From NCBI GenBank assembly GCA_018658715.1, contig JABHUQ010000041.1:1-64000 (forward strand): a DNA stretch of 64,000 nt, read 5' to 3'. Shown here in pieces: positions 35,879 to 55,826 of this stretch. The notes below the pieces were generated by a model. The model was not told the origin of the DNA. It did not search any database and was given only the letters and a program-made list of their open reading frames with translations. Source of the DNA: Fidelibacterota bacterium (lineage in GTDB: Bacteria > Fidelibacterota > Marinisomatia > Marinisomatales > UBA1611). How positions within the stretch are numbered: position 1 is the stretch's first letter; every line of letters starts with the position of its first letter. The position numbers were made by a program, and so were the translations under genes.

Positions 35879-37066
35879 TTATGATTCAAAATAAATCACT
35901 TTATCATCTTTTAACTGGTCCATCTCATTCGATGATAATCCTAATTCAGATAAAACTTTTTCAGTATCCTTTCCAATATTATTGGGTGGATTTTTTCGAA
36001 GACCTAAATCAGAATCACCATACTCAATCGGAAGTCTTGGCATTTTAGCTTGTGTCCCATTAGGAAATTCTGTATTCAATAATCTGCCATTATGATTGAG
36101 CTGAATATCATCAAATAAATCTTCGGGACATGCTATGGGAGCAAATGGGACCCCACCTTTTTGACATTTATAAATAATTTCTTCCTTGGTGAACGATTTT
36201 AACAATTTTTCAATTTCTGGAATAAACCATTCTCTTTCTCGGATTCTATCATTATTTGTTTTTAATCTCGAATCATCCAATAGTGAATTACATTTAAATT
36301 CATGGCAAAATTTTTCCCAATGTTTTTCACTTATTACACCTACGAATATTTGTTCGTCATCCTTAGTGTCAAATACTTTATATATCGCCCAAGCGCTAAT
36401 GCGATTAGTCATAGGTGGTATTTTTTCATCTGATAAAGCAGAATAGGCCATATGTTGACCCATAATAAATGCACACGTTTCATATAGAGAACTTTTTATA
36501 TATTTTCCCATATTTGTGGTTTTTCGTTCAAAAAGTGCTGTTAATATTCCCATGGCCGCAAACATGCCTCCTGAAATATCAATGACAGATGCACCCGCCC
36601 TTAATGGTTGACCTGGTAACCCTGTCATATATGCTAATCCTCCCATCATTTGAACCACTTCATCCATTGCATGACGGTTCTCATATGGCCCTGATAAAAA
36701 GCCTTTAAGTGATGCATAAATCAGAGAAGGATTAATCGATTTCATTTCTTTGTAACCAAATCCTAATCTATCCATAGTCCCAGGTCCATAATTTTCAATT
36801 AATATATCTGCTTTATTCACTATTTTTCGAGCAATACTCTTCCCATCAGATGTTTTTATATTAATCGCAATTGATTCTTTATTTCTGTTATAAAATGGAT
36901 AATACCCTTTACCAAATCCTTTTAACTTTCGGGTTGGGTCGCCTGTTGTTGGTTCAACTCTAATAATGTCTGCACCTAAATCTGCCAATATGAGCCCACA
37001 AGATGGACCCATTACTGCATGTGTAAATTCAATTACTTTAATTCCGCTCAACGGTAAAGGAGTCAC
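35879..37066 (-). CDS. CaiB/BaiF-family (class III) CoA-transferase
   Basis: 395 residues. N-terminal block IKVIEFTHAVMGPSCGLILADLGADIIRVEP and central NRNKESIAINIKTSDGK are family signatures; ILIENYGPGTMDRLGFGYKEM follows. The catalytic Asp lies in HAMDEVVQMMGGLAYMTG, as in formyl-CoA transferase. These enzymes move CoA between carboxylic acids through acyl-aspartyl intermediates. It overlaps the FadR-type regulator gene by four bases (ATGA) and would activate an organic acid for the HMG-CoA lyase-like enzyme encoded in the divergent operon. The acids used are not identifiable. Confidence 0.9.
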   Translation of the reverse strand: MTPLPLSGIKVIEFTHAVMGPSCGLILADLGADIIRVEPTTGDPTRKLKGFGKGYYPFYNRNKESIAINIKTSDGKSIARKIVNKADILIENYGPGTMDRLGFGYKEMKSINPSLIYASLKGFLSGPYENRHAMDEVVQMMGGLAYMTGLPGQPLRAGASVIDISGGMFAAMGILTALFERKTTNMGKYIKSSLYETCAFIMGQHMAYSALSDEKIPPMTNRISAWAIYKVFDTKDDEQIFVGVISEKHWEKFCHEFKCNSLLDDSRLKTNNDRIREREWFIPEIEKLLKSFTKEEIIYKCQKGGVPFAPIACPEDLFDDIQLNHNGRLLNTEFPNGTQAKMPRLPIEYGDSDLGLRKNPPNNIGKDTEKVLSELGLSSNEMDQLKDDKVIYFES

Positions 37067-37773
37067 TTCTCTTCCCTTTGTGACTCCAATACATTTCCAA
37101 CTTGGTGCATGTGAGACTGCATGGCTAATTCTGCACCTTCAATATCTTGACTAACAATATTTTTTAGTATTTTTTTATGATGACTGAGAGCTGTTTCAGT
37201 TTGATCTTGAAAGTTTAAAACAAATGTTAAGTCACTTCTCAATATTTGCATTATTGCTTGCGTTAACACAACAAAAGCAGAATTCCCAGACGCTTTTGCT
37301 AATTCCACATGGAATTCCATATCCACTTCAATGAATTTTTTTGTATGATTTTTTGATTTTTCCATCTTTTCGATAAGGAATTGCAATTGGTCAATATTTT
37401 CTTGTTTACGGTTTTTAGCTGCTAACTTTGCAATAGGGGCTTCCAATACTTTTCTTGCATAATGTAGATCTTCTTTTACTACCTTTTCTACATCTAATAA
37501 CAAATTGACAGATTCGACAATACGATCAGCAGTATTGTTAGCAACAAAAGTACCCCGTCCAACCATAATATCTATTAATCCAATTTCTGATAACGATTTA
37601 ATAGCTTCTCTTACAGCTGTTCGACTAACACCAAATTGTTGAGCCATATCTCTTTCAGATGGTAATTGATCTCCTTTTTTTAATTCACCGCTTAAAATCA
37701 TCTTTCTAATTTGATTAACAATATTTTTATAAAGTTTTTGTTGTGGGACAATTGGTTTGTAATTGACATTCAT
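37063..37773 (-). CDS. FadR-type GntR regulator (FCD domain)
   Basis: 236 residues. A winged helix near residues 12-78 includes MILSGELKKGDQLPSERDMAQ and FGVSRTAVREAIKSL. The FCD effector domain (about 95-225) is helical, with D and H residues (DMEFHVELAKASGN, LSHHKKILKNI) that bind a metal and organic acid in this class. Usual action is repression relieved by a pathway intermediate. The palindromic operator at 37845-37877 lies between it and the divergent fifteen-gene operon, so autoregulation and control of both sides is likely. A related operator lies at 55844-55870. Confidence 0.92.
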   Translation of the reverse strand: MNVNYKPIVPQQKLYKNIVNQIRKMILSGELKKGDQLPSERDMAQQFGVSRTAVREAIKSLSEIGLIDIMVGRGTFVANNTADRIVESVNLLLDVEKVVKEDLHYARKVLEAPIAKLAAKNRKQENIDQLQFLIEKMEKSKNHTKKFIEVDMEFHVELAKASGNSAFVVLTQAIMQILRSDLTFVLNFQDQTETALSHHKKILKNIVSQDIEGAELAMQSHMHQVGNVLESQREEK

Positions 37774-37844
37774 TTCTTGATCCTGTTAATTGCTAAAAAT
37801 TGTATTGCAAAAGTTGAAATAAATCTTTAGTCTCTTCTTGATAT

Positions 37845-37877
37845 AAGTGGTCTAATGGTCATACCATCATACCACTT
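37845..37877. promoter_or_regulatory. Nested palindromic operator for the FadR-type regulator
   Basis: Outer arms AAGTGGT and ACCACTT surround an inner ATGGT/ACCAT pair centred on position 37861, within the divergent promoter region. TGGT-N11-ACCA spacing occurs between 37856 and 37874. The right half ATCATACCA is identical to that of the operator at 55844-55870. FCD-family GntR regulators commonly bind TGGT...ACCA palindromes, so the adjacent regulator is the likely ligand; that is inference. Confidence 0.75.
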
Positions 37878-37952
37878 AACATACAGATTTTCAAGCATTA
37901 ATCATATAAAATATTTATGACTGGATTCATTTTGAGTGGAGAATTGCGTTAA

Positions 37953-39254
37953 ATGGCAGGATTTACAGTGACAGAAAAAATTATGGCACAACAGAGTGGA
38001 AGAGATTCTGTTCGTCCCGGCGAATTGGTTTGGGTGGATGTAAATTCCATTATGACCATGGATTATTTAGGGAAATCCACCTTCAATATATTTGATTCTT
38101 TAGGCGCGAAAGATCTCTTTGATCGTGATAAAGTGATTTGCGTATCCGATCATTTAGTTCCTCCCCCCACTGAGCGATTTGCCAATTTACTTAATGAATG
38201 GCGTGAAATCGTCAAAGCTCATAATGTCACTCATTTTTATGATTTTGGCAAACAAGGCATCGCTCATCAAATTATGCTAGAAGATGGACATGTGCTCCCG
38301 GGAACCATTAGTATCGGGACCGACTCTCACGCCAATTCTTATGGTGCTGTCGGTGCGGTTGGAAATGCAGTGAGCGTAACGGATGCAGCTGTTGCTATGG
38401 CCACAGGGAAAGGATGGTTTCGTGTCCCGGAAACAGTGAGATTTCATATAACCGGGAGATGGCAACCTTGGGTCATGGGAAAGGATTTATCACTGCACAT
38501 TATGAATATGATGCATTGGAATGGAGATCTTATTTATAAAGCATTGGAATATGATGGCCCTGCTATGAGTGATTTATCCATGGGTGGGCGAATTTCTCTT
38601 TGCAATATGACGGTAGATTTGGGTGCAAAAAATGGAATCGTTGCTCCCGATGAAAAAACGCAAGCCTATTTAAATGGTGTGGCTAAAGGTGATTGGGAAA
38701 TGGTTTCTTCCGATTCAAACGCTGAATATGAAGCTGAATATGAAATTGATATTTCCAATGTTGGCCCAGTCGTCGCCAAACCAGATAATTTAGACGATGT
38801 AGTTACAGTTGAAGAAGTTGTGGGGACAAAATTGAATCAGATATTTATTGGGACCTGCACCAATGGACGGGTGGAAGATTTTGGTATTGCGGCGGCTATT
38901 TTAGAAGGAAAACAAGTTCATCCTGATATTAATATGCTCATGGTTCCCGCAAGTCAAACCCAATATTTAGAAGCCATGCATAAGGGATATGTTTCCACGT
39001 TGGTCAAAGCGGGCGTCGCTATTGGCACATCTGGATGCGCCCCTTGCTTTGGAACCCATCGTGGTGTTGCCGGAGACGGAGATGTTGTTTTGAGTGCAGG
39101 GAATCGAAATATGAAAGGACGGATGGGAAGTAAATCAGCAGAAATATATTTAACATCCCCTGCTGTCTGTGCTGCATCCGCTCTCACGGGGGCAATTGCT
39201 GACCCCCGAGATTTGCCCATGCCAGAAAACTTTGGAGTAACCTATGGCGAATAA
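37953..39254 (+). CDS. Aconitase-superfamily large subunit, LeuC-like (copy 1)
   Basis: 433 residues. Iron-sulfur cluster cysteines are kept: FIGTCTNGRVEDF and SGCAPCFGTHRG. The substrate-side histidine/serine block is SIGTDSHANSYGAVGAVG. These place it with isopropylmalate/homoaconitate-type hydro-lyases, which move water on 2-hydroxy di- or tricarboxylic acids with a [4Fe-4S] cluster. No leucine-pathway gene is present and a second pair lies 13 kb downstream in the same array, so I do not call it leuC. It overlaps its small subunit by 11 bases. First gene of the plus-strand operon after the operator. Its partner subunit is oddly diverged. Confidence 0.85.
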   Translation: MAGFTVTEKIMAQQSGRDSVRPGELVWVDVNSIMTMDYLGKSTFNIFDSLGAKDLFDRDKVICVSDHLVPPPTERFANLLNEWREIVKAHNVTHFYDFGKQGIAHQIMLEDGHVLPGTISIGTDSHANSYGAVGAVGNAVSVTDAAVAMATGKGWFRVPETVRFHITGRWQPWVMGKDLSLHIMNMMHWNGDLIYKALEYDGPAMSDLSMGGRISLCNMTVDLGAKNGIVAPDEKTQAYLNGVAKGDWEMVSSDSNAEYEAEYEIDISNVGPVVAKPDNLDDVVTVEEVVGTKLNQIFIGTCTNGRVEDFGIAAAILEGKQVHPDINMLMVPASQTQYLEAMHKGYVSTLVKAGVAIGTSGCAPCFGTHRGVAGDGDVVLSAGNRNMKGRMGSKSAEIYLTSPAVCAASALTGAIADPRDLPMPENFGVTYGE

Positions 39255-39783
39255 TTTAAAAGGCACCGTTTGGAAAGCAGAAGGCTATGTTTTTGCTTAT
39301 GATATCATTAAACAGGAATTTTGGACATCTGCTTTAGATAAGGAAGAAAATAGTAGATGGGTGATGGGTGGTGTTCATTCTGATTTTGATTGTGAAAATG
39401 GATTTAAATCCAATGGATATTCATTTATCGTCGCCGGTCATAATTTTGCTGGTGGCGGGAAAAGTATTGAACACGTCATTACAGGACTCATGGGAGCCGG
39501 TATTAAAGCAGTTATTGCCGAATCTTTTTCTCGACTTCAATTCCGAAATGCAATTAATTATGGGTTACCCTTCATTACGTGCAAAGGCATTGAAGCTATC
39601 GCTTCTTCCGGGGATGAGCTAGAAGTTGATCCTATTTCGGGACAGATAAAAAATCTTACAACGGGTGAAGAAATTCAAGCTGCGCCTGTGGCACCCTTTG
39701 TCGCTGAAGTTGCGGAAGCAGGTGGATTGATTTCTTATATTCAACAGGCCATAAAAGAAGGAAAAGTGGACGAGCTACGATGA
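39244..39783 (+). CDS. Diverged aconitase-superfamily small subunit, LeuD-like (copy 1)
   Basis: 179 residues, with the swivelling-domain core GAGIKAVIAESFSRLQFRNAI that marks LeuD-type subunits. The usual substrate loop G-x-G-S-S-R-E-H is replaced by GGGKSIEH, so the Ser that acts as base in aconitase and the carboxylate-binding Arg appear missing. The N-terminal DTDxIIP motif is also replaced (YVFAYDIIKQEFW). It overlaps the large subunit and the aldolase gene. It probably has a different substrate from IPM isomerase, or a noncatalytic role; the pairing with a cluster-bearing large subunit favours the former. Confidence 0.8.
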   Translation: MANNLKGTVWKAEGYVFAYDIIKQEFWTSALDKEENSRWVMGGVHSDFDCENGFKSNGYSFIVAGHNFAGGGKSIEHVITGLMGAGIKAVIAESFSRLQFRNAINYGLPFITCKGIEAIASSGDELEVDPISGQIKNLTTGEEIQAAPVAPFVAEVAEAGGLISYIQQAIKEGKVDELR

Positions 39784-40547
39784 AAGAAAATAAAATGAAG
39801 ACAAAATTAACCAATGGTGATCCTGTCTTTGGTTGCATTGCACCCAATTCTGATTCCATACTCATAGAAACAATGGGGCTTATTGGCTTTGATTATCACA
39901 TTTTAGATTGTGAGCATGGCCCCGCAGGTGTCGTGGAAGTAGAAAACTTTGTACGTGCATGTGAAATACGCGGTATGACGCCACTCGCTCGTGTTCGTGA
40001 ATTAAATCGTCATCTCATTCTTCAATTTATGGATGCAGGCATCATGGGACTTATTGTTCCCGGTATGAAAAATGCAAATATGGTGCGAGAAATGGTTGAT
40101 GCCGTCAAATATCCGCCCATGGGAAACCGTGGGCTTGGCCCTATTCGAGCTGCTGACTATATGCTGGGGAAAATGAGTCAGGAAGAATATGTCAAATTTG
40201 CCAACGAACAAACAATGGTTTTGCCATTATTTGAAGATATTTCTGCTTTAGATAATTTAGATGAAATGGTAAAGGTCAAAGGACTTGACGGCTTTATTAT
40301 TGGACCCCGAGATTTAGCCATGTCTATGGGTTATATCGATGGACCAGCAGGGCATAACGATGTAAAAGAAACGATAGATAAAGTGATCAAAACAGTCACA
40401 GATGCTGGTCTGGTTGTAGGAACGGTTGCACCAAATGGATCAGCTGCAAAAGGACTTATAGAACGGGGTGCTCAGATTTGTCTTGGTGGTGTGAATGGTT
40501 TACTGGTTTCTGCCGGAAGAACTTATTTAAACGACGCAAAAAATTAA
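39780..40547 (+). CDS. HpcH/HpaI-family aldolase
   Basis: 255 residues. GFDYHILDCEHGP holds the catalytic His and a metal-site Glu; RVRELNRHLILQFMDAGIMG and VPGMKNANMVREMVDAVKYPP follow the family pattern; the metal ligand lies in LPLFEDISALDNLDEM; and GFIIGPRDLAMSMG closes the barrel. These metal-dependent class II enzymes cleave 4-hydroxy-2-oxo acids to pyruvate plus an aldehyde. An aldehyde dehydrogenase in the same array could take the aldehyde. Start ATG 39780 overlaps the previous stop as ATGA; ATG 39795 is an alternative. Confidence 0.88.
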   Translation: MKENKMKTKLTNGDPVFGCIAPNSDSILIETMGLIGFDYHILDCEHGPAGVVEVENFVRACEIRGMTPLARVRELNRHLILQFMDAGIMGLIVPGMKNANMVREMVDAVKYPPMGNRGLGPIRAADYMLGKMSQEEYVKFANEQTMVLPLFEDISALDNLDEMVKVKGLDGFIIGPRDLAMSMGYIDGPAGHNDVKETIDKVIKTVTDAGLVVGTVAPNGSAAKGLIERGAQICLGGVNGLLVSAGRTYLNDAKN

Positions 40548-40567
40548 TAGTAATAAAGGAGAATCTT

Positions 40568-40879
40568 ATGTCAACTCTCATCGTTTTATTCAATTTGAAA
40601 GAAGGCCAATCTGTGGATGATTATGAAGCCTTTGCAAAAGATGTAGATGTTCCCGGAGTAAAATCTTTGAATTCCATTGATGATTTTAAAGTCTATAAAT
40701 CACAGGCACTTTTATTTTCAGAAGATGCTCCCCCATATCAATATTTCGAAGTTATTGATGTGAATGATATGGATGCATTTGGGGCAGATGTACAAGATGA
40801 AAAAGTACAAGAAATTGCAGGAAAATTCCAAGGTATGGTGGACAACCCCATGTTTATTCTCACTGAAAAAATCGCCTAA
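40568..40879 (+). CDS. REDY/HapK-like small dimeric alpha-beta protein
   Basis: ATG 40568 has AAAGGAG eight bases upstream, so the 30-residue extension in the track ORF is dropped. The 103-residue protein begins TLIVLFNLKEGQSVDDYEAF and contains APPYQYFEVIDVNDMDAF, the pattern of REDY-like (HapK) proteins of the ferredoxin-like dimeric fold. Relatives occur beside pigment and aromatic-compound genes; their role is poorly known. It sits between the aldolase and the SDR. A small-molecule binding or isomerase-type role is guesswork. Confidence 0.7.
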   Translation: MSTLIVLFNLKEGQSVDDYEAFAKDVDVPGVKSLNSIDDFKVYKSQALLFSEDAPPYQYFEVIDVNDMDAFGADVQDEKVQEIAGKFQGMVDNPMFILTEKIA

Positions 40880-40881
40880 TC

Positions 40882-41715
40882 ATGAAATCATTAGCGGGAA
40901 AAACAGCCATCATTACCGGTTCCGGTAGAGACAAAGGTATTGGAAAAGGAATTGCCATGGCCTTCGCAGATGCAGGATGCAATGTGGTCATAAGCGATAT
41001 TGGCGTTGCCAAAGACCATCGTTTTGATGAAAGCCACATTGGAACAACCCTTGAAATGGAAGCCATTGTCCAAGAAGCCAAGAATAAAGGTGTAGATGCA
41101 ATTGGCGTTGAGTGTGATGTGCGGAGCGAATCCGAAGTAGACCAATTAATTTCTACAACAGTGGCTCATTTTGGTGCCTTTGATATTATGGTGAATAATG
41201 CAGGAATTGGGTATCTCATGGAACCGTTGGTTGATTTCAAGGAAGAAAGTTGGGATGCTGTATTAGAAGTGAATCTTAAAGGCGCATTTTTGTGCACAAA
41301 GCATTCTGCAAAACATATGATAGATCTAGGAAACGGTGGACGTATTATTAATATTGCTTCTCAAGCGGCCAAATCTGGCTTCCCATTTGCTGCAGCTTAT
41401 ACCGCATCCAAACATGGAATGGTGGGATTGACGCGTTCTAACGCTGTGGAGTTAGGTCAACATAAAATTACAGTGAATGCAGTATGCCCCAATCATATCA
41501 CCACAGGACTCGGTCAATGGCAGAATGAATTTTTCAGTGAAAAGATGGGTATGAATTATGATGATTACATTCAAGGTATTCGTGACAGAGTTCCACTGGG
41601 GCGCGTCGGTATGGTAAATGATATTGCCAAAGCATGCATTTTCCTAGCATCAGACCAAGCGGATTATATTACCGGCGAAGCACTGAATGTCAGTGGCGGC
41701 GAAGAAATGCATTAA
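40882..41715 (+). CDS. Short-chain dehydrogenase/reductase
   Basis: 277 residues. NAD(P)-binding motif TGSGRDKGIGKGIA, NNAG at FDIMVNNAGIGYL, catalytic Ser in INIASQAAKS and the YxxxK in AAAYTASKHGMVG are all present. The acidic ISDIG after strand 2 favours NAD. A longer insert before helix C (AKDHRFDESHIGTTLEMEAI) is seen in some SDRs acting on larger or acidic substrates. It would oxidise or reduce a hydroxy/keto intermediate of the pathway. Starts two bases after the REDY-like gene. Confidence 0.9.
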   Translation: MKSLAGKTAIITGSGRDKGIGKGIAMAFADAGCNVVISDIGVAKDHRFDESHIGTTLEMEAIVQEAKNKGVDAIGVECDVRSESEVDQLISTTVAHFGAFDIMVNNAGIGYLMEPLVDFKEESWDAVLEVNLKGAFLCTKHSAKHMIDLGNGGRIINIASQAAKSGFPFAAAYTASKHGMVGLTRSNAVELGQHKITVNAVCPNHITTGLGQWQNEFFSEKMGMNYDDYIQGIRDRVPLGRVGMVNDIAKACIFLASDQADYITGEALNVSGGEEMH

Positions 41716-41718
41716 ACG

Positions 41719-43800
41719 ATGAGTTTTCAACTTGGTATTGATATTGGCGGAACCTTTACGGATGTGGTATTGCTGGATGAAAAAAACGAAAAACTCACCT
41801 TCGGGAAAACCCTCACAACTTATGGTGATCCTACCGATGGAATCGTTAATGGTATTCAACAAGTATTACGTGATAATCATGTATCCGGAAAGGATATCCG
41901 TCGCGTCCTACATGGTACCACATTGGTTACCAATGCAATCATTGAACGAAAAGGCGCCAAAACGGGATTAATCACGACAAAGGGATTTGAAGATGTATTA
42001 GAAATTGGTCGTGAGCTTCGATATGATATTTATGATTTAAATATTACCATGCCCAAACCATTAGTGCCAAGAAACTTGCGTGTAGGCGTAAGCGAACGCA
42101 TGGATAAACATGGTAATATTATTCATAGTCTCAACCAATCTGACTTAGCTGAATCTGTTCAAAAACTTGTCGATCAAGGCGTAGAAGCCGTTGCCATTTG
42201 TTATATGTTTGGATTTATGAATCCCACTCATGAACAAGAAACTGCACAATACATTCAATCTCATTTCCCTGACATATATGTTAGTGTTTCCAGTGAAATC
42301 ATGCCGGAGATTCGGGAATATGAACGCACATCTGCCACAGCGATGAATGCATTTGTCCAACCCCTGACGCATACCTATTTATCACGTTTAGAAACTCGGC
42401 TATATGAAATGGACATCGCTGGTGTTATCAATATTATGCTTTCAAGTGGGCGACTCACCACACTCGAAGGCGCGAAACACTCACCCATCCATTTATTAGA
42501 ATCCGGACCTGCCGGCGGAACAATGGCGGGCGTTTTTGTGGGAAAGCAAACGCATCGGAAAGATTTATTTGCCTTTGATATGGGAGGGACGACGGCCAAG
42601 GCATCACTTATCCATAACCATGAGCCCGACATTACAAATCAATTTGAAGCGGGTCGTGTAAAACGATTCCGCAAAGGCAGTGGATTACCTGTGCGTATCC
42701 CAGTGATTGATATGATAGAAATTGGTGCTGGTGGCGGAAGTATTGCTAAAGTGAATCAATTAGGTTTACTAACTGTTGGACCGGAAAGTGCCGGTTCGGA
42801 ACCGGGCCCTGCATGTTATGATCGTGGTGGAAAATTTCCAACTGTAACAGATGCAGATTTAGTATTGGGATATTTAAATGAAGATTTTTTCTTGGGCGGA
42901 ACCATGAAACTAAATCGCCAAAAAGCTGAAGATGCTATTCGAATTCATTTAGCCGAATCATTAGGCCTCTCCGTGGAAGATGCAGCTTTAGGTGTTCATC
43001 GTGTAGTGAATGAAAACATGGCAAATGCAGCTCGCGTTCACATTTTAGAGAAAGGACAAGACCCTAGGCATTATACTATGATGGCTTTTGGCGGTGCAGG
43101 TCCCGTTCATGCATTTCATGTGGCGCAACGACTTAACTTAAAACAACTCATGGCTCCTGTGGGTGCCGGTGTAGCTTCAGCGATTGGATTTTTAGTTTCT
43201 GCTGTTGCGGTGGAATCTGTTCGAAGCCATGTCAATAAATTAGCAACCATGGATTGGGAGCAAGTGAATTTATTTTTAGATGAATTGGAAAAGAGTGGAC
43301 GGATTTTTTTAGCAAATTCAGGAATTACTGATGCAGATGTTACTGTTACTCGCCAATCGGATATGAGATATTTTGGACAAGGATTTGAAATAAAAGTATC
43401 CGTTCCAAACGGAATATTATCCGAAGATAAAATTGTTAAAATTGAAAAGAATTTTTCTAAAGTATATAAAACACTCTATTCTCGAACCATTGATGATGTA
43501 CCGATTGAGAGTGTTACATGGCGCGTGTTAACCAAAGGGCCATCTCCGGAAATTCGATTACAACAAGTTTTTGATGATAATAGTCATATAACACTTAAGG
43601 GTCATCGGAAAGTGCGATTTCCAGAAATGGAATCGCCTTTAGAATGCCCTGTTTATAGTCGATATGGATTAACCGTTGGGGATGAAATAAATGGTCCGGC
43701 CATTATTGAAGAAAAAGAATCAACTTTTGTGATTGGTCCAAATAGTCGATTTTCAGTGGATAATCAAATGAACATTGTTGTGGATATGGAAGCGTCATGA
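41719..43800 (+). CDS. hyuA: HyuA-type hydantoinase/oxoprolinase subunit A
   Basis: 693 residues, standard length for HyuA. The first ATP-fold motif is QLGIDIGGTFTDVVLLD, the second is FAFDMGGTTAKASLI, and GAGGGSIAKVNQLGLLTVGPESAGSEPGPACY is typical for the family. With HyuB it makes an ATP-dependent enzyme that opens hydantoins or oxoproline, or, in the acetone/acetophenone carboxylase branch, carboxylates ketones. Overlaps hyuB by four bases. Which chemistry applies cannot be decided from the motifs. No third carboxylase-type gamma subunit is adjacent, which favours hydrolysis weakly. Confidence 0.92.
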   Translation: MSFQLGIDIGGTFTDVVLLDEKNEKLTFGKTLTTYGDPTDGIVNGIQQVLRDNHVSGKDIRRVLHGTTLVTNAIIERKGAKTGLITTKGFEDVLEIGRELRYDIYDLNITMPKPLVPRNLRVGVSERMDKHGNIIHSLNQSDLAESVQKLVDQGVEAVAICYMFGFMNPTHEQETAQYIQSHFPDIYVSVSSEIMPEIREYERTSATAMNAFVQPLTHTYLSRLETRLYEMDIAGVINIMLSSGRLTTLEGAKHSPIHLLESGPAGGTMAGVFVGKQTHRKDLFAFDMGGTTAKASLIHNHEPDITNQFEAGRVKRFRKGSGLPVRIPVIDMIEIGAGGGSIAKVNQLGLLTVGPESAGSEPGPACYDRGGKFPTVTDADLVLGYLNEDFFLGGTMKLNRQKAEDAIRIHLAESLGLSVEDAALGVHRVVNENMANAARVHILEKGQDPRHYTMMAFGGAGPVHAFHVAQRLNLKQLMAPVGAGVASAIGFLVSAVAVESVRSHVNKLATMDWEQVNLFLDELEKSGRIFLANSGITDADVTVTRQSDMRYFGQGFEIKVSVPNGILSEDKIVKIEKNFSKVYKTLYSRTIDDVPIESVTWRVLTKGPSPEIRLQQVFDDNSHITLKGHRKVRFPEMESPLECPVYSRYGLTVGDEINGPAIIEEKESTFVIGPNSRFSVDNQMNIVVDMEAS

Positions 43801-45422
43801 ATAATCAAAAATTTGATGGAATTAACTTAAGCATTTTATGGTCACGATTGTTGGCCATCGTGGATGAAGCCGGTACCGCATTACAACGCACATCTTTTTC
43901 AACCGTTACGCGTGAATCCAATGATTTTGCTGTGGTGCTTATGGATACTCAAGGGCGATCCATTGCTCAATCAACTATTTCTGTTCCATCCTTTTTGGGT
44001 GTAATTCCAATGATGACCAAATATTTGCTCAATGGAAATTTTCCGTTGAACTCATGGAAAACGGGTGATGTGGTGACCACAAATGATCCCCAACTATGTG
44101 CCGGACATAAACCGGATGTGGGTGTTGTTTCTCCTATTTTCCATCAAGATAAATTGATTGGCTTCATCGGAACCATTTCTCATGTACCTGATATTGGGGG
44201 GGTGCTTTGGGGCGCTGGTGCTCGTGATGCTTATGAAGAAGGTTTATTGATTCCGCCCACAAAATTGTATGCCGAAGGTATTCAAAATGAAACACTCATC
44301 AGCTTAATCGAAAATAATGTTCGCGCACCCATGCAAACGATTGGTGATATTCGTGCTCAAGTTGCCGCCAATGACCAAGGAAGAAAAGGGCTCATTTCAT
44401 TGATGAATGAAGTGGGTTTGAATAATATTGAAACATTAGCTGAGCAAATTATTGGTGTATCAGAAAAAGCCATGCGAGATGCTATTTCTGATGCACCAGA
44501 CGGAACGTATAAATACACCTATGGTGCAGATGGAGACGGTATTAATGAACCAGTCACCATTGAATGTGCCATTACCATTGTCGGAGATGAAATTGCTGTA
44601 GATTACGAAGGCACGAGTGATGCTCATACTTTAGGTATTAATGCGGTTTTGAATTATACCTATGCTTACACAGCTTATCCGATCAAATGCACATTTAGTC
44701 CAGATGTGCCAAATAACGATGGTGCCTTTATACCCATAACCGTAACGGCGCCCCGGGGTTCACTATTAAATGCCACAGGATACGTTCCCGTCGGCGCTCG
44801 AAATATGACAGGGAATATGCTCCATGCACCCGTTTTTGGTGCATTAGTCCAAGCTGTTCCGGAACAAGTCCAAGCGGACTGTGGCGCACCCTGTTGGTGT
44901 GTGGTTTTGAATGGAAGGCATCCTGAAAAAGATAATATGGAATTTGTTGAATATTTTTTTTTAAATGGCGGATATGGTGCAAGACCAAATAGAGATGGAG
45001 AAGGAATTTTAAGTTTCCCAACCAATGTGTCCAATGTCCCTATTGAAGTATTGGAAAGTTCAACACCAATTCGATATCATGAAAAATCTCTTATTCCTAA
45101 TTCTGCTGGGATGGGAAAATTCCGTGGCGGATTAGGGCAAAAAATAATTTTTGAAGTATTGAATGAATCAGGGCTTAATATGTCGGTATTGACTGAAAAG
45201 TTAATAACAGTTTCCAAGGGATTGAATGGCGGAAAAGATTCTATCCATGGAAAAATATCAATTTCTCCTGAACGATTTATTCCGCCTAAAGGTATTATTC
45301 GATTGAAAAAAGGTGATATTGTTACCATGGAAATGCCTGGTGGCGGTGGATATGGAAATGAAAATGATCGAGATCCCGAATTAATTAAATATGATCAAGA
45401 TTTGGGGTATATTCATTCATGA
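43797..45422 (+). CDS. hyuB: HyuB-type hydantoinase/oxoprolinase subunit B
   Basis: 541 residues. SRLLAIVDEAGTALQRTSFSTVTRESNDFAVVL opens the family fold; GDVVTTNDPQLCAGHKPDVGVVSPIF and GFIGTISHVPDIGG hold conserved Asp/His residues that bind metal. PNSAGMGKFRGGLGQ and MEMPGGGGYG are C-terminal family marks. Partners HyuA in an alpha/beta complex. Start overlaps hyuA and stop overlaps the NTF2-like gene (ATGA each), so the three are tightly coupled in translation. Confidence 0.92.
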   Translation: MNNQKFDGINLSILWSRLLAIVDEAGTALQRTSFSTVTRESNDFAVVLMDTQGRSIAQSTISVPSFLGVIPMMTKYLLNGNFPLNSWKTGDVVTTNDPQLCAGHKPDVGVVSPIFHQDKLIGFIGTISHVPDIGGVLWGAGARDAYEEGLLIPPTKLYAEGIQNETLISLIENNVRAPMQTIGDIRAQVAANDQGRKGLISLMNEVGLNNIETLAEQIIGVSEKAMRDAISDAPDGTYKYTYGADGDGINEPVTIECAITIVGDEIAVDYEGTSDAHTLGINAVLNYTYAYTAYPIKCTFSPDVPNNDGAFIPITVTAPRGSLLNATGYVPVGARNMTGNMLHAPVFGALVQAVPEQVQADCGAPCWCVVLNGRHPEKDNMEFVEYFFLNGGYGARPNRDGEGILSFPTNVSNVPIEVLESSTPIRYHEKSLIPNSAGMGKFRGGLGQKIIFEVLNESGLNMSVLTEKLITVSKGLNGGKDSIHGKISISPERFIPPKGIIRLKKGDIVTMEMPGGGGYGNENDRDPELIKYDQDLGYIHS

Positions 45423-45865
45423 ACGGAGAATCTCAACACTCATTGATTCAAGACTTTTGCAACAAACAATTTTCCGCCGTCATTGAAGCCCGAGTTAAAG
45501 ATATTATCAGCCACTATAATGAATCACCAGATACATACGTATTTGTAGAAGGCCCACGCTGGTCCACGTTGGGATTTGAAAAAATATCCGCCGGGTGGAA
45601 TGGATATGTGGATTCTCCCATCAAAGTAAAAGATATTCGATTTGTAGAAGGACCCAAAGGTCGCGTGACAAAAAATATGGCATGGATCGGTCATATTATT
45701 AATATGATTGTAGACATCAATGGCGTAGAAAAAGAGATACGATTCCGCGGCACATTTGTCATTGGAAAAAATAATGATGGCGGATGGAAAATCGAACATG
45801 AACATTTTTCACAACCAGCGCCAGATCCCTATGGAACAGGTGACTGGTTACCAAAAGGAGAATAA
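45419..45865 (+). CDS. NTF2-like / SnoaL-like fold protein
   Basis: 148 residues with a helical N-terminus and a curved sheet typical of NTF2/SnoaL/DUF4440 proteins: YVFVEGPRWSTLGFEKISAG, VKDIRFVEGPKGRV, then EIRFRGTFVIGKNNDGGWKIEHEHFS. The final GGWKIEHEHFS strand is a common signature in DUF4440-like proteins. Such folds act as small hydratases, isomerases or binding proteins. It follows hyuB with a four-base overlap and precedes the nitrilase-fold gene by one base; an accessory role in the ring-opening step is plausible. Confidence 0.75.
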   Translation: MNGESQHSLIQDFCNKQFSAVIEARVKDIISHYNESPDTYVFVEGPRWSTLGFEKISAGWNGYVDSPIKVKDIRFVEGPKGRVTKNMAWIGHIINMIVDINGVEKEIRFRGTFVIGKNNDGGWKIEHEHFSQPAPDPYGTGDWLPKGE

Positions 45866-47044: not shown

Positions 47045-48457
47045 ATGAAAAACTCCATATCGGTAAGAAACCCACGGACAGGACAAGTGGATTATACATT
47101 TGATCCGCCTTCTAATCATGACCTTTCATCTATGTACCGATCTGGACGAAATGCTCAAAAAGTTTGGACAGAAAATGGAATAGATTATCGTATTGACATA
47201 TTACAAAAATGGAAGAAGGCTTATGAATCTCGTAGCGATGAACTCATAAATGCGTTAGCCACTGATACAGGGCGAATTCATGAAACCATTCTAGAGGTAG
47301 AAACTATTCCAAAATCCATTGATCGCTGGTGTGACATTGCCAAAGAATTATTTGGAAACTCTGAACCAAAACTATCTTCCATTCCATTCATTGCTATGGA
47401 ACAACACACTGTCCCCTATTCATTGGTGGGCGTCATCAGTCCCTGGAATGTGCCAAATCTCTTGGCCCATATTGATGCCATTCCGGCATTGTTGGCCGGG
47501 AGTTCTGTCATCATTAAACCTAGCGAATTTACACCAAGGTTTGTAGAACCATTACAACACATTGTTGAATCTGTTCACGAATTGTCGGACGTTTTACAAT
47601 ATGTTCAAGGGGACGGAAACACTGGCGCTTTATTGTTAGATGAAGTGGATTTAATTTGTTTTACTGGGAGTGTTGCGACTGGTAAAAAAGTAGGACAACA
47701 AGCGGCTAAAAACTTTATACCCGCATTCCTTGAATTGGGTGGAAAAGATGCGGCTATTGTATTAGAAAGTGCCAATCTAGAAAAAGCAGCATCTGCTATT
47801 CTATGGGGTTCAGTCGTTAATGCGGGACAATCCTGTTTATCTATTGAACGTGTTTATTGTATGGAATCTGTTTATAATTCATTTTTATCTATCCTGACTG
47901 AAAAAGCGAATGCAATACAATTGGCTTATCCCGAAATGGACAGCGGGCAGATTGGTCCCATCATTTCACCCAATCAAACTGAAATCATTGAATTACATTT
48001 GGAAGATGCAATATCAAAAGGCGCCCATGTACATCGTGGTGGAAGTATTGAACACCATGGCGGTGGTGATTGGGTTCGTCCAACCGTTTTATCTCAAGTA
48101 AATCATTCTATGAAAATCATGACAGAAGAAACTTTTGGTCCTATCATTCCCATCATGTCTGTGTCTTCTCAAGATGAAGCCATTCACTATGCGAATGATA
48201 CAGAATATGGATTGAGTGGTGCTGTTTTTGGAGAAGAGTCTGTTGCGAAATCCATTGCAAAAAAAATAGAAGCAGGCGCCATCAGTATTAATGATGCTGG
48301 ATTAACATCCATTTTGTATGATGGAGAAAAAAATTCATTTAAATCATCTGGTTTGGGGGGCTCTCGTATGGGGCCCACATCCATTCAGCGATTTTTTAGA
48401 AAAAAAGTATTATACACCAATACAAATTCACAAAATGACCCTTGGTGGTTCAACTAA
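47045..48457 (+). CDS. NAD(P)-dependent aldehyde dehydrogenase
   Basis: 470 residues. Oxyanion Asn lies in GVISPWNVPNLL, cofactor loop FTGSVATGKKVGQQ, catalytic Glu in FLELGGKDAAIVLE and catalytic Cys in NAGQSCLSIERVY. Oxidises an aldehyde to an acid with NAD(P), fitting an aldehyde released by the HpcH-type aldolase. A 140-base gap precedes it, holding a run of eight G (47015-47022), the longest gap in the array, so an internal promoter or regulatory site is possible there. Confidence 0.92.
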   Translation: MKNSISVRNPRTGQVDYTFDPPSNHDLSSMYRSGRNAQKVWTENGIDYRIDILQKWKKAYESRSDELINALATDTGRIHETILEVETIPKSIDRWCDIAKELFGNSEPKLSSIPFIAMEQHTVPYSLVGVISPWNVPNLLAHIDAIPALLAGSSVIIKPSEFTPRFVEPLQHIVESVHELSDVLQYVQGDGNTGALLLDEVDLICFTGSVATGKKVGQQAAKNFIPAFLELGGKDAAIVLESANLEKAASAILWGSVVNAGQSCLSIERVYCMESVYNSFLSILTEKANAIQLAYPEMDSGQIGPIISPNQTEIIELHLEDAISKGAHVHRGGSIEHHGGGDWVRPTVLSQVNHSMKIMTEETFGPIIPIMSVSSQDEAIHYANDTEYGLSGAVFGEESVAKSIAKKIEAGAISINDAGLTSILYDGEKNSFKSSGLGGSRMGPTSIQRFFRKKVLYTNTNSQNDPWWFN

Positions 48458-50371: not shown

Positions 50372-51265
50372 ATGTCCCATTCAAATCAAATCATTTTAAC
50401 TGAAGTAGGCCCACGAGACGGATTTCAAAGCGTTTCTGAACTTGTTCCAACTAATCAAAAAATAGACATAATACGTGGTCTTGTTGGCGCGGGGCTTAGA
50501 CAAATCCAAGTTGCATCATTCGTTCATCCAAAGTGGGTTCCACAAATGGCAGATGCTGAAGATATCTGCAAACAATTGCCGAAAAATGATAATGTTATTT
50601 ACAGCGGATTGGCATTAAATAACCGTGGCGTTGAACGAGCCATAGATGCCAATCTTCAGCGTATAGAAGTATCTATTTCTACCAGTGAGACACATAGTAA
50701 AAATAATACCAATATGACATTAGAAGAAGCCATGGAAAATTTGAAATCTATGATAAAATTGGCCAAGGGAAATGGATTGGAAGTACGAGCTGGGTTACAA
50801 GCAGTTTGGGGTTGTGTTTATGATGGATTTCCTCCCATTGATCGAATCATCAATTTATCAAAAACCATTCTCGACCTCGGTATAAATACCTTATCCTTGT
50901 CCGATTCAACAGGAATGGGAAATCCATATTCAATCAAAGAAACTTTAAAACATATCCTTCCCCATGCTGGGGATGTACCTATTGCATTGCACTTACACGA
51001 CACCCGCGGATTGGGATTAGCCAATGTGGTTGCAGCTATAGATATGGGGGTAAATCAATTTGATTCAGCTCTTGGGGGCATTGGTGGATGTCCTTTCATC
51101 AAGGGTGCCACAGGTAATATTGCTACGGAAGACACTGTGAATCTTTTCAATGAGTTGGGTCTAGATACAGGCATAGATATAAAAAATTTAGCTGCTATTT
51201 CTCGATCATTAGTCCCTGTTATTGGAGAAAAATATTTTTCTGGAAAACTTTATAAAATAAATTAA
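50372..51265 (+). CDS. HMG-CoA lyase-like enzyme
   Basis: 297 residues, typical length. TEVGPRDGFQSV carries the catalytic Arg and metal-ligand Asp; LSLSDSTGMGNP, ALHLHDTRGLGLANV (two metal His) and GGIGGCPFIKGATGNIATED (mobile-loop Cys) are all in place. The reaction cleaves a 3-hydroxy-3-methylglutaryl-CoA-type ester to acetyl-CoA and a keto acid. The context of a CoA-transferase and two hydro-lyase pairs suggests a branched 3-hydroxyacyl-CoA other than HMG-CoA may be used. It abuts the previous gene with no gap. Confidence 0.9.
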   Translation: MSHSNQIILTEVGPRDGFQSVSELVPTNQKIDIIRGLVGAGLRQIQVASFVHPKWVPQMADAEDICKQLPKNDNVIYSGLALNNRGVERAIDANLQRIEVSISTSETHSKNNTNMTLEEAMENLKSMIKLAKGNGLEVRAGLQAVWGCVYDGFPPIDRIINLSKTILDLGINTLSLSDSTGMGNPYSIKETLKHILPHAGDVPIALHLHDTRGLGLANVVAAIDMGVNQFDSALGGIGGCPFIKGATGNIATEDTVNLFNELGLDTGIDIKNLAAISRSLVPVIGEKYFSGKLYKIN

Positions 51266-51268
51266 AAC

Positions 51269-52510
51269 ATGGGACAAACTATTTCAGAAAAAATTCTTTC
51301 TACTCATGCTGGTCATGATGTAAAAGCAGGAGAACTAGCCATTGTCAATATTGATGGGGTCATGGCATCTGATACTACGGCTCCCTTAACCCTAAAAGCA
51401 TTTAAAGAAATGGGTGGAACCACACCTTGGAATTCTGATAATACAATTTTTGTTATTGATCATGCTTCTCCTGCCCCCAATGAACACATTGCCAATCTCC
51501 ACAAGTTTATCCGTGAATTCGCCAATAAAACAAATTCCATTTTATATGATGAAGGATCAGGAATTTGTCATCAAATTATGGTAGAAGAACAACATGTTAA
51601 ACCGGGTCAATTAGTTATTGGGGCTGACTCTCATACCGTAACGTATGGTGCCCTTGGAGCTTTTTCTACCGGTGTAGGATCTACAGATCTTGCTGCCATC
51701 ATGATTACTGGAAAAACATGGATCAAAGTTCCGGAAAGTATCAAAATAATACTGAATGGAAAACCAAATCCCGGAATAACGGCCAAAGATATTATATTAG
51801 ATATTGTAGGGAAACTAGGTTCGAACGGAGCTACGTATAAAACATTGGAATATGTCGGTTCCACATTAGAATTTCTCTCTTTGGGTGACCGAATGACCAT
51901 TGCAAATATGTCAGTGGAAATGGGTGGAAAAGCTGGCATCTTTGAAACAACCGGTTTGGAATTGCCATATAAATTTGAATCGGTTATAGGTGATGCTGAT
52001 GCAGAATATTTAGAAACTATCACTATTGACGTTTCTGTGATTCGGCCCAAAATTGCCAAACCTCATTCATTGGAAAATATCTGTGATATTGATGAAGTAC
52101 TCGGAATAAAAATTGATATAGCCTTCATCGGAACTTGCACTAATGGACGCTTGGAAGATTTACAATTAGCCGCTTCTATTTTGAAAGGAGAAAAGCTCGC
52201 ACCGGGAGTGCGCATGCTTATTACACCTGCTTCCAGAAATGTGTTGAATAAGGCTATGGCGGACGGAACCATGAATATTTTATCAGAAGCAGGAGCTACA
52301 TTGATTCCACCAGGATGCGGTCCATGTGTGGGAACTCATTTGGGTGTTCCAGGAAATGAAGAAGTCATTCTTTCCACCGCAAATCGGAATTTCCCCGGCA
52401 GAATGGGAAATCCAAATTCTCAAATTTATTTGGCGTCACCAGCCGTTGTAGCTGCATCTGCATTGACAGGTGTTATAACGGATCCCATATCCATTGGAAA
52501 GAATGAATAA
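51269..52510 (+). CDS. Aconitase-superfamily large subunit, LeuC-like (copy 2)
   Basis: 413 residues, of the archaeal-type LeuC/HacA branch. VIGADSHTVTYGALGAFSTG, FIGTCTNGRLEDLQLAASIL and PPGCGPCVGTHLGVPG hold the substrate block and the three cluster cysteines. It pairs with an apparently complete small subunit downstream, unlike copy 1. Reaction expected: dehydration/hydration of a malate-type acid using [4Fe-4S]. Three bases after the lyase gene; one-base overlap with the small subunit. Confidence 0.9.
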   Translation: MGQTISEKILSTHAGHDVKAGELAIVNIDGVMASDTTAPLTLKAFKEMGGTTPWNSDNTIFVIDHASPAPNEHIANLHKFIREFANKTNSILYDEGSGICHQIMVEEQHVKPGQLVIGADSHTVTYGALGAFSTGVGSTDLAAIMITGKTWIKVPESIKIILNGKPNPGITAKDIILDIVGKLGSNGATYKTLEYVGSTLEFLSLGDRMTIANMSVEMGGKAGIFETTGLELPYKFESVIGDADAEYLETITIDVSVIRPKIAKPHSLENICDIDEVLGIKIDIAFIGTCTNGRLEDLQLAASILKGEKLAPGVRMLITPASRNVLNKAMADGTMNILSEAGATLIPPGCGPCVGTHLGVPGNEEVILSTANRNFPGRMGNPNSQIYLASPAVVAASALTGVITDPISIGKNE

Positions 52511-52995
52511 TGGTCGGAAAAGTTCATCTTTATAACATTGACAATATTGATACGGACAGAATTATTCCTGGGAAGTATACCAAAACTCTTGATGTTTCTA
52601 CTTTTGCAGACCATTGTTTAGAAGATCTGGATTCTGATTTCAAAACAAAAGTTCAACAAGGAGATATTTTAGTGGGTGGGTGGAATTTCGGATGTGGCTC
52701 TTCTCGAGAACAAGCGCCTATTGCCTTAAAGGTATCCGGGATTTCAGTTGTAATTGCCCGTTCATTTTCGCGAATATTTTATCGAAACGCTATCAATATT
52801 GGCTTACCGATATTAGAAATTCCTGAACATGATATTTCGGATAGAATACGTCTCGAGATAGAATTAGAATCGGGGAAAGTGGCGGATGGAGATATAATAT
52901 ATTCTGCAACTCCCCTTCCTCAGGTTATGATTGATATATTAAATGAGGGTGGGCTGGTTGCTTACTTGAAAAAGTTTGGAAAATATAAAATATAA
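52510..52995 (+). CDS. Aconitase-superfamily small subunit, LeuD-like (copy 2)
   Basis: 161 residues. The full signature set is present: IDTDRIIPGKYTKTL at the N-terminus, GWNFGCGSSREQAPIAL with the catalytic Ser and substrate Arg, and SFSRIFYRNAINIGLP. It therefore contrasts with copy 1. Together with copy 2 large subunit it should form an active hydro-lyase. Last gene of the plus-strand array, ending seven bases before the convergent NmrA-like gene; no hairpin terminator is visible in the gap. Confidence 0.9.
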   Translation: MVGKVHLYNIDNIDTDRIIPGKYTKTLDVSTFADHCLEDLDSDFKTKVQQGDILVGGWNFGCGSSREQAPIALKVSGISVVIARSFSRIFYRNAINIGLPILEIPEHDISDRIRLEIELESGKVADGDIIYSATPLPQVMIDILNEGGLVAYLKKFGKYKI

Positions 52996-54255: not shown

Positions 54256-54627
54256 TTATTCCGTCGTGAATTCTTTGGCTAAATCTTCTACAGCTTCATT
54301 CATATCTGGTGATGTTTCTAATGCTTCTCTATCCTGTTGGATGATTCGCATGATGCGAGCTAAATACTCTGCATGCCAGGTTTGTCTTTCATGGGCATCA
54401 TTTTCAGTTGGGGTAAATGATTCAATTTCATCTCGACTCATTATCCCTTTGGATTCTAAAATGCGCTCTAATGTATCCAATCTTTCTCGCGTTACTGCTA
54501 ATTCTCCAGCAATCGCCATTGTGATAGATAAGACTTTTTCAACTTCCGGATTATTTAAAAACCACGGACGTTTCCCTTTTGGTTTTTTACCTGCTTCTGC
54601 TATGTAATCTATATTTAGTTTTTTCAT
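54256..54627 (-). CDS. Helical protein of unknown function
   Basis: ATG 54627 overlaps the methyltransferase stop by four bases (ATGA); the track start at 54654 is too early. The 123-residue protein is mostly alpha-helical, with AGKKPKGKRPWFLNNPEVEKVLSI near the N-terminus and amphipathic helices after it (AVTRERLDTLERILESKGI, LARIMRIIQQDREALE). No family recognised. Its coupling to the methyltransferase and the cupin suggests a subunit or accessory protein for them. Confidence 0.7.
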   Translation of the reverse strand: MKKLNIDYIAEAGKKPKGKRPWFLNNPEVEKVLSITMAIAGELAVTRERLDTLERILESKGIMSRDEIESFTPTENDAHERQTWHAEYLARIMRIIQQDREALETSPDMNEAVEDLAKEFTTE

Positions 54628-55826
54628 GATTTCCATGCTCCAAATACGGTCCATAATGCTTCTCGGCCATGATCTTCAAAAATAGCTTTTGCTGGTTTTG
54701 TTACATCCCCATCCACAGTATCTGCCGCTGCTTTAAATTCCATATAATTGTCATCACTAAAACCGCCCATGCGCATTATTTCCTTTGTATCCATACCATG
54801 CATTTTTGACCAAAAAGGTTCATTATTATACCAACAATCCCAATCTCGAATCGCTTGCTCCAATAAATCCATTTCTGGGGTGTAATTAGGCTGCTCAACT
54901 TGGAGCAATAGGCCGCCCGGTTTAAGCATGCGCCCCAATTCACTCATAATTCTTCTAATTGATTTAGATGATAATTCATGTAAAAACATGGTTGTTTGAA
55001 TCCAATCGAAATAGCCATCTTCATAATCGAGATTTTCTACATCGGCTTGAATAAATGTTACATTATTCACACCTAAATCTTGGGCTCTTGCATGCCCATA
55101 TCGTAATACAGGAGCACCTGCATCAATAGCAATAACTTCCGCATCAGGATAAGCTTGGGCAATTGGTAACACATTATGTCCAATTGTGCAGCCTACATCT
55201 AAAATACGTTTTGGTTTAAAGTCGGTAAATTTCTGTTTTACCGAAGATGCGACTGCCCTTCCACCACCATCAATACCAGGACCAACGCCACCTGTGGTAG
55301 TGACAAAAATACCTGAATCATAATTTGCGCCTACTGAAATATCACCTTCTACTAATTCTGTATGATAACCACCCACTTGACAATGAATATCCACAGCAGA
55401 TGCATATCTTGGAGATTTAATTTCCGAATTCAACTTTAGAGTAGGTTTTCCTTCATTTAGTTTTTCTGCCTTTCCATTAAGATCATCAATTTGGCGAAGT
55501 ACGACTGACCTACCTGCTTGTTGGCGCATTTCCATTGTATTTCTACGAAGGGCTGACCATGTTTGCCAATATGGATCTTTCTTTAAGGCACGATGCACTT
55601 CATGTCTATTCTCAAAATTTCGCCCATGCTCTTTAATAAAATTGGGTTTTAACCGCTTTTCATATACAACTTTATTTCCTGCTGATACCCCAGCCAAGTG
55701 CTGATTTAAGCTGGCAATAAAATTAAATCTCGCTGTTTCATCATGAGTGGGTTCGGGGAAAACACCATGACGACTTACCTTATCATAAGTTGGTGGCAAT
55801 TGGCCTGAATAGTCTGATTTTTTCAT
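54624..55826 (-). CDS. Class I SAM methyltransferase with long N-terminal domain
   Basis: 400 residues with AAGGAGATAAA upstream of ATG 55826. Motif I is RILDVGCTIGHNVLPIA, followed by AEVIAIDAG (acidic loop), NNVTFIQADVENLDY and a LKPGGLLLQVEQPN motif. About 190 residues of unrecognised N-terminal sequence precede this core, including HGRNFENRHEVHRALKKD and a Gly-rich VTTTGGVGPGIDGGG stretch. It leads a four-gene operon with a perfect palindrome just upstream of the ribosome site. Substrate unknown; a small carboxylic acid or phenolic intermediate is possible. Confidence 0.85.
   Translation of the reverse strand: MKKSDYSGQLPPTYDKVSRHGVFPEPTHDETARFNFIASLNQHLAGVSAGNKVVYEKRLKPNFIKEHGRNFENRHEVHRALKKDPYWQTWSALRRNTMEMRQQAGRSVVLRQIDDLNGKAEKLNEGKPTLKLNSEIKSPRYASAVDIHCQVGGYHTELVEGDISVGANYDSGIFVTTTGGVGPGIDGGGRAVASSVKQKFTDFKPKRILDVGCTIGHNVLPIAQAYPDAEVIAIDAGAPVLRYGHARAQDLGVNNVTFIQADVENLDYEDGYFDWIQTTMFLHELSSKSIRRIMSELGRMLKPGGLLLQVEQPNYTPEMDLLEQAIRDWDCWYNNEPFWSKMHGMDTKEIMRMGGFSDDNYMEFKAAADTVDGDVTKPAKAIFEDHGREALWTVFGAWKS

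Follow-up and report, generated by a model that had tools for sequence, protein, structure and literature searches.

The window (the whole 64,000-nucleotide stretch of DNA that was analysed) contains two pairs of LeuC- and LeuD-like genes. The first pair, here called LeuC' and LeuD', lies in a row of plus-strand genes next to a divergent regulator gene, and copy 2 is located further along the same array. The genome also encodes separate aconitase and leucine-type LeuCD genes. The features of the array are as follows.

35879..37066, minus strand: family III CoA-transferase, a conserved member of the Kapabacteria version of the pathway
37063..37773, minus strand: divergent gene for a putative GntR-family regulator, identified by inspection of the sequence
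37844..37878, plus strand: palindrome upstream of LeuC', containing TGGTCATACCA at 37856-37866; candidate GntR/FadR-type operator
37953..39254, plus strand: LeuC' large subunit, with every cluster cysteine retained and an 11-nt overlap with the start of LeuD'
39244..39783, plus strand: LeuD' small subunit, 179 aa, LeuD-like, catalytic Ser/Arg loop absent
39780..40547, plus strand: HpcH/HpaI-type aldolase, overlapping LeuD' by 4 nt
40562..40879, plus strand: HapK-like (PF11639) protein
40882..41715, plus strand: short-chain dehydrogenase (SDR)
41719..43800, plus strand: HyuA (hydantoinase/oxoprolinase A)
43797..45422, plus strand: HyuB (hydantoinase/oxoprolinase B)
45419..45865, plus strand: SnoaL-like protein, conserved in the pathway
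47045..48457, plus strand: aldehyde dehydrogenase; the nearest model is succinic semialdehyde dehydrogenase, with a score below the cut-off
50372..51265, plus strand: HMG-CoA-lyase-like enzyme
51269..52510, plus strand: LeuC copy 2, canonical, sister to the LeuC2 of Kapabacteria and one Saprospiraceae locus
52510..52995, plus strand: LeuD copy 2, canonical, with the loop NFGCGSSREQ and the motif DTDRIIP
54256..54654, minus strand: 132-aa protein beside the methyltransferase, conserved in the pathway, no Pfam match
54624..55826, minus strand: methyltransferase-like protein of 400 aa that co-occurs with LeuD'

The sequence VAGHNFAGGGKSIEHVITG is read within the translation of the LeuD' open reading frame (39244..39783, plus strand). 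Three stretches of the first pair differ from the canonical enzymes.

39292..39312, plus strand: LeuD' F17-A-Y-D-I-I-K23, which replaces DTDxIIP in the alignments
39442..39474, plus strand: LeuD' loop NFAGGGKSIEH (N67-H77), identical in 69/69 relatives with varying synonymous codons; the Lys73 codon is at 39460-39462
38616..38618, plus strand: codon of LeuC' Asp222, which corresponds to aconitase Glu262; a clade-fixed change from Glu to Asp (D in 65/65, versus E in 29/29 canonical LeuC)

Residue numbers for Ser642, Ser643, Arg644, Glu262, and Thr168 are those of mitochondrial aconitase. In the alignment to the solved LeuD proteins 3VBA, 2PKP, and 1V7L, NF-A-GGG-K-S-I-EH of LeuD' is matched to NF-GCG-S-S-R-EH. 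The match makes Ala69 an insertion and puts Lys73 in the position of Ser642 and Ile75 in that of Arg644; Ser74 corresponds to Ser643 and is retained. If the extra residue is instead assigned to the opposite flank of the loop, Gly72 aligns with Ser642. In these alignments no placement that respects the insertion brings a Ser to the Ser642 site, and the presence of another in-register Ser in the loop is ruled out. Among the relatives of LeuD' the TD motif has become a pair of the AY or SF type, with the Asp changed to an aromatic residue (Y/F).

The first-pass annotation had read GGGKSIEH in place of G-x-GSSREH in copy 1, had found DTDxIIP missing there, and had described copy 2 as canonical. 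The translation and the alignment to solved LeuD proteins bear out the first of these readings, F17-A-Y-D-I-I-K23 bears out the second, and the motifs of LeuD copy 2 agree with the third. That annotation had also named two observations that would speak against a new specificity or mechanism: a different Ser/Arg pair at the catalytic sites, or a loop common among known active isopropylmalate isomerases. At the sequence level, the alignments contain no such pair, and a loop of the NFAGGGKSIEH type occurs in none of the aligned solved LeuD proteins and in none of the 33 sampled canonical LeuD sequences, all of which have GSSRE.

The scan for relatives relied on exact peptides taken from the window protein and may miss more distant carriers. 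It recovered 68 relatives that share the loop (one genome per GTDB species; best 80 of 85 matches listed), and among the matches listed all of these are from Bacteroidota (including Kapabacteria) or Marinimicrobia. Beyond the closest Marinimicrobia, the dereplicated relatives have an overall identity of 56-67% to the window protein. The 11-residue loop is nevertheless invariant in the window protein and its 68 relatives (69/69, among the matches listed). The codons of the loop have several synonymous variants at every position and zero replacements across these 69 sequences, again among the matches listed: Ser74 is encoded by AGT, AGC, TCT, TCG, TCC, and TCA, which include both the AGY and the TCN class, and Lys73 by AAA and AAG. 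Because the loop is identical in 69/69 despite full synonymous codon variation, it is under strict selection. Residues Q99, F100, and Y106 of LeuD' are also newly fixed. Decay of LeuD' into a pseudogene is ruled out by the identity of the loop alongside synonymous variation. A sequencing or assembly error in the loop is ruled out as well; independent MAGs with 94-96% identical proteins agree.

The large subunit has kept most of its active site. Cys302, Cys362, and Cys365 of LeuC' (corresponding to Cys358, Cys421, and Cys424) are present in 65/65 sequences, as expected from the earlier claim that the cluster cysteines of the large partner are intact. Arg385 and Arg390 (Arg447 and Arg452), Asp66-His67, His105, and Asp124-Ser125-His126 are retained, and the equivalents of His101, His147, and Asp165 are all present. 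In addition to the change from Glu262 to Asp, which the first-pass annotation does not mention, Ala127 takes the place of Thr168 (Ala in 65/65, versus Thr in 29/29 canonical LeuC).

The AlphaFold model of LeuD' has a mean pLDDT of 93 and a pTM of 0.89, and the predicted structure has the small-domain fold (LeuD/aconitase domain 4). The top fold match in the PDB is 3VBA, the small subunit of a methanogen isomerase (TM 0.82/0.88, the latter by target), with other LeuD proteins and aconitase next; because the model matches these structures, the fold is judged to be intact and the change local. Against the NCBIfam profile TIGR02087, LeuD' scores 91.4 bits, which is a significant match under the curated cut-off of 108.95; LeuC' scores 464.2 bits against TIGR02086 (IPMI_arch), over the curated cut-off of 410.15. 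By fold, cluster site, and sequence, LeuC'D' is a member of the aconitase superfamily. Several features that define the core (non-AcnX) part of this superfamily are absent, namely the Ser642 base (Lys73 in 69/69, among the matches listed), Arg644 of the SSRE loop (Ile75 in 69/69, among the matches listed), and Glu262 together with the small-subunit TD motif (Asp222 in 65/65). Because these defining catalytic features are lacking, LeuC'D' should not be annotated as a 3-isopropylmalate dehydratase. Judged from its sequences, it is a real variant of the isopropylmalate-isomerase type, and its conservation is strict. We found no description of the variant in the literature on the gene set, the catalytic residues, or plasmid pJE1.

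In the phylogenies of LeuC and LeuD (the latter calculated with the loop masked), the LeuC' and LeuD' sequences each form one clade with 100% support, and the stem of the LeuC' clade has a length of 1.7 changes per column. Because this holds for both subunits, LeuC' and LeuD' most likely changed together, once. LeuD' is present in 5/245 Marinimicrobia genomes; the identity to the window protein is 96% in a member of another family of the order and 94% in a member of the same genus. Across the families of the order, the LeuD' of four Marinimicrobia genomes (G106, G125, G129, and G130) are 93-96% identical. This similarity between families, although only 5/245 genomes of the phylum carry the gene, suggests that LeuD' spread horizontally, perhaps recently, in Marinimicrobia.

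The gene order LeuC'-LeuD'-HpcH aldolase-HapK-SDR-HyuA-HyuB is maintained in Bacteroidota, Kapabacteria, and Marinimicrobia. The version in Flavobacteria contains one or two inserted genes for FAD enzymes. Outside Marinimicrobia, the operon is usually preceded by a DUF3598-like gene and followed by a methyltransferase-like gene; the canonical LeuCD2, the CoA-transferase, and the aldehyde dehydrogenase are common to the Marinimicrobia and Kapabacteria loci, and the Saprospiraceae loci share the HMG-CoA-lyase-like gene. LeuD' and the methyltransferase of the pathway are found in the identical 5/297 Bacteroidota genomes (chance approximately 3e-9, with the centre genome discounted). The palindrome with TGGTCATACCA, which sits between the GntR gene and LeuC', is also kept in three Marinimicrobia loci (L005, L007, and L028), and TGGTNNNACCA occurs 2 times in the window versus 0.84 expected. 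The palindrome at 37844-37878 is likely an operator.

Genes adjoining the operon, upstream of LeuC' and within 8 kb, include DUF3598-like genes in 57/69 loci and CpeT/CpcT-like genes in 16 loci (for example, L008 and L037). The CpeT/CpcT family is known from the attachment of phycobilins in cyanobacteria. As a lead only, these neighbours hint at a possible bilin or pyrrole substrate; a literature search on the degradation of hematinic acid and maleimide yielded no support for it.

A related, uncharacterised catabolic cluster on the Sphingomonas sp. JE1 plasmid pJE1 (L085, 12711-25268) has the same SDR, HapK, methyltransferase, and 132-aa protein; LeuC'D' is absent, and a gene is annotated as a member of the MmgE/PrpD family. 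The plasmid clusters L086 and L088 are related and share the same four genes. MmgE/PrpD is the family of 2-methylcitrate dehydratase, and the sphingomonad cluster carries such a gene in the absence of LeuCD. A hydration or dehydration step would predict a swap of this kind; the cluster has no aldolase, its HyuAB show only a distant relationship (35% and 27%), and the replacement of LeuC'D' by a dehydratase is only suggestive. On a Peribacillus plasmid (L087, 6261-10429), genes for a CoA-transferase, a canonical LeuCD, and an HMG-CoA-lyase-like enzyme are consecutive and correspond in type to LeuCD2 and the genes that accompany it in the window; this row is surrounded by genes for flavin-dependent oxidoreductases and riboflavin. 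The LeuC of four further loci (L081-L084, deltaproteobacterial type) have GTSCNGR for GTCTNGR, which moves the first cluster cysteine by one residue, and QPRN for the usual xNRN.

Weighing these data, we lean towards LeuC'D' working as a two-subunit [4Fe-4S] hydro-lyase that is functional and owes its rebuilt active site to a single change in a common ancestor; with an altered substrate and Lys73 or another residue as acid/base, it would serve a GntR-controlled catabolism. Lys73 and Ile75 are fixed in the lineage, and the enzyme is always found inside one uncharacterised degradation pathway; LeuC'D' therefore probably performs an altered version of the textbook reaction. The first-pass annotation had suggested a new specificity or mechanism. 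The part of this that has support is a functional, altered enzyme in place of a decayed one, on account of the strict conservation, the co-changed residues of the partner, and the kept operon, whereas a new mechanism is something we only infer.

The retained cluster ligands, His/Asp pairs, and two large-subunit arginines would make LeuC'D' an isopropylmalate-isomerase-like hydratase or isomerase, with a Lewis-acid reaction at the Fe-S cluster because the ligands and the His/Asp pairs are kept. LeuD' would offer neither the Ser alkoxide base nor the Arg of the SSRE loop. Because Arg644 is lost, the substrate may lack one carboxylate at this position, or carry an amide or other neutral group in its place. 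Lys73 at the Ser642 site may act as acid/base, tuned by the shorter Asp222, but it could be structural instead of catalytic. The solved proteins nearest to HyuA are N-methylhydantoinase and 5-oxoprolinase, so HyuAB may open a lactam or hydantoin-like ring upstream of LeuC'D', which would then hydrate or isomerise the unsaturated acid produced by ring opening. A hydroxy-oxo acid would be a plausible product of this step because the neighbouring aldolase is HpcH/HpaI-like; the aldolase would cleave this acid, and one product would pass to the aldehyde dehydrogenase of the succinate-semialdehyde type. Taken together, the pathway would be a catabolism of a lactam or N-heterocycle under GntR control.

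The loss of the base could equally mark a non-catalytic subunit, and the Arg of the SSRE loop is missing as well. LeuD' might thus be dead as a catalyst and serve as a scaffold or in regulation, with LeuC' either borrowing a canonical small subunit (from copy 2, which lies 13 kb off in the window and nearby in Kapabacteria, or from the leucine-type pair) or being non-enzymatic. However, a dead loop is unlikely to stay identical in 69/69 sequences (among the matches listed) amid such synonymous change, nearly all Bacteroidota loci have no second LeuC/LeuD within flanks of approximately 8 kb, and LeuC' has kept its catalytic residues while changing in step with LeuD'. We regard a dead LeuD' as quite unlikely.

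If LeuD' is catalytic, its chemistry could be the usual one with only the specificity changed, the base being supplied by Ser74, by Gln99 or a Tyr, or by a residue of the large subunit. The retention of Ser74 at the Ser643 position, the newly fixed Q99, F100, and Y106, and the unchanged fold of the modelled LeuD' are compatible with such an ordinary hydro-lyase; against it, the insertion never places Ser74 at the Ser642 site in any alignment, and Lys73 is itself fixed. We consider a base from elsewhere unlikely. A reaction other than (de)hydration, for example a different isomerisation or the elimination of another group from a ring-derived substrate, would fit the location amid ring-opening enzymes and the fact that the changed positions are invariant in all sampled canonical enzymes. 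But the cluster ligands and the equivalents of His101, His147, and Asp165 are all present, and the downstream aldolase suits the product of a hydratase; such a reaction seems very unlikely. Within the preferred reading of a functional, rebuilt hydro-lyase, a more specific proposal is tentative and, to us, possible: LeuC'D' may have swapped the Ser alkoxide base for Lys, matched by the change from Glu to Asp near the cluster, and may (de)hydrate a substrate that is not citrate-like in an undescribed ring-degradation pathway.

Such a conserved lineage, without the Ser base and with the cluster retained, would show how far aconitase chemistry can be rebuilt. LeuC'D' offers a counterpart from nature to the S642A and R644Q variants of aconitase solved in the PDB (1C96 and 1B0M), and it marks an undescribed catabolic pathway with a patchy distribution in Bacteroidota and Marinimicrobia. 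The array resembles the HpaH-HpaI type of hydratase plus aldolase in meta-cleavage pathways in having a downstream aldolase of the HpcH/HpaI type and an aldehyde dehydrogenase that comes closest to the succinate-semialdehyde type. The aldolase in the window scores 151.8 against the HpaI equivalog, far under the cut-off of 368.8, and HpaH is not known to be an Fe-S enzyme.

The best match of LeuC'D' in sequence and fold is the archaeal-type isopropylmalate/citramalate isomerase (4NQY/4KP1 for the large subunit, 3VBA for the small one), with which it shares the two-subunit layout, the fold, the cluster cysteines, and most active-site residues. It differs in replacing the Ser base, the SSRE Arg, the TD motif, and Glu262, and in one additional residue in the loop. 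The LeuD/DmdB subfamily TIGR02087, whose name includes the dimethylmaleate hydratase DmdB, is of the same superfamily and length as LeuD'; however, LeuD' falls below its cut-off, and the sampled canonical proteins have GSSRE (DmdB was compared via this profile). According to a published comparison, 20 active-site residues are fully conserved in all aconitases except aconitase X, with Ser642 as the base (PMC8184944). The Ser base is described as common to aconitases, homoaconitases, and isopropylmalate isomerases, and divergent aconitase X has it too (PMC8184944). As aligned here, LeuC'D' departs from this published conservation at Ser642; the usual mapping gives further changes at Arg644, Glu262, and the Asp of the TD motif. 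Aconitase X (cis-3-hydroxyproline or phosphomevalonate dehydratase) is the superfamily's other branch in which the active site was rebuilt; its Ser70 is equivalent to Ser642, and Lys530 has a catalytic role (PMC8184944). The position of Lys530 is not homologous to that of Lys73 in LeuD'. In aconitase X the Ser is retained and the cluster site changed, whereas in LeuC'D' the cluster site is retained and the Ser lost.
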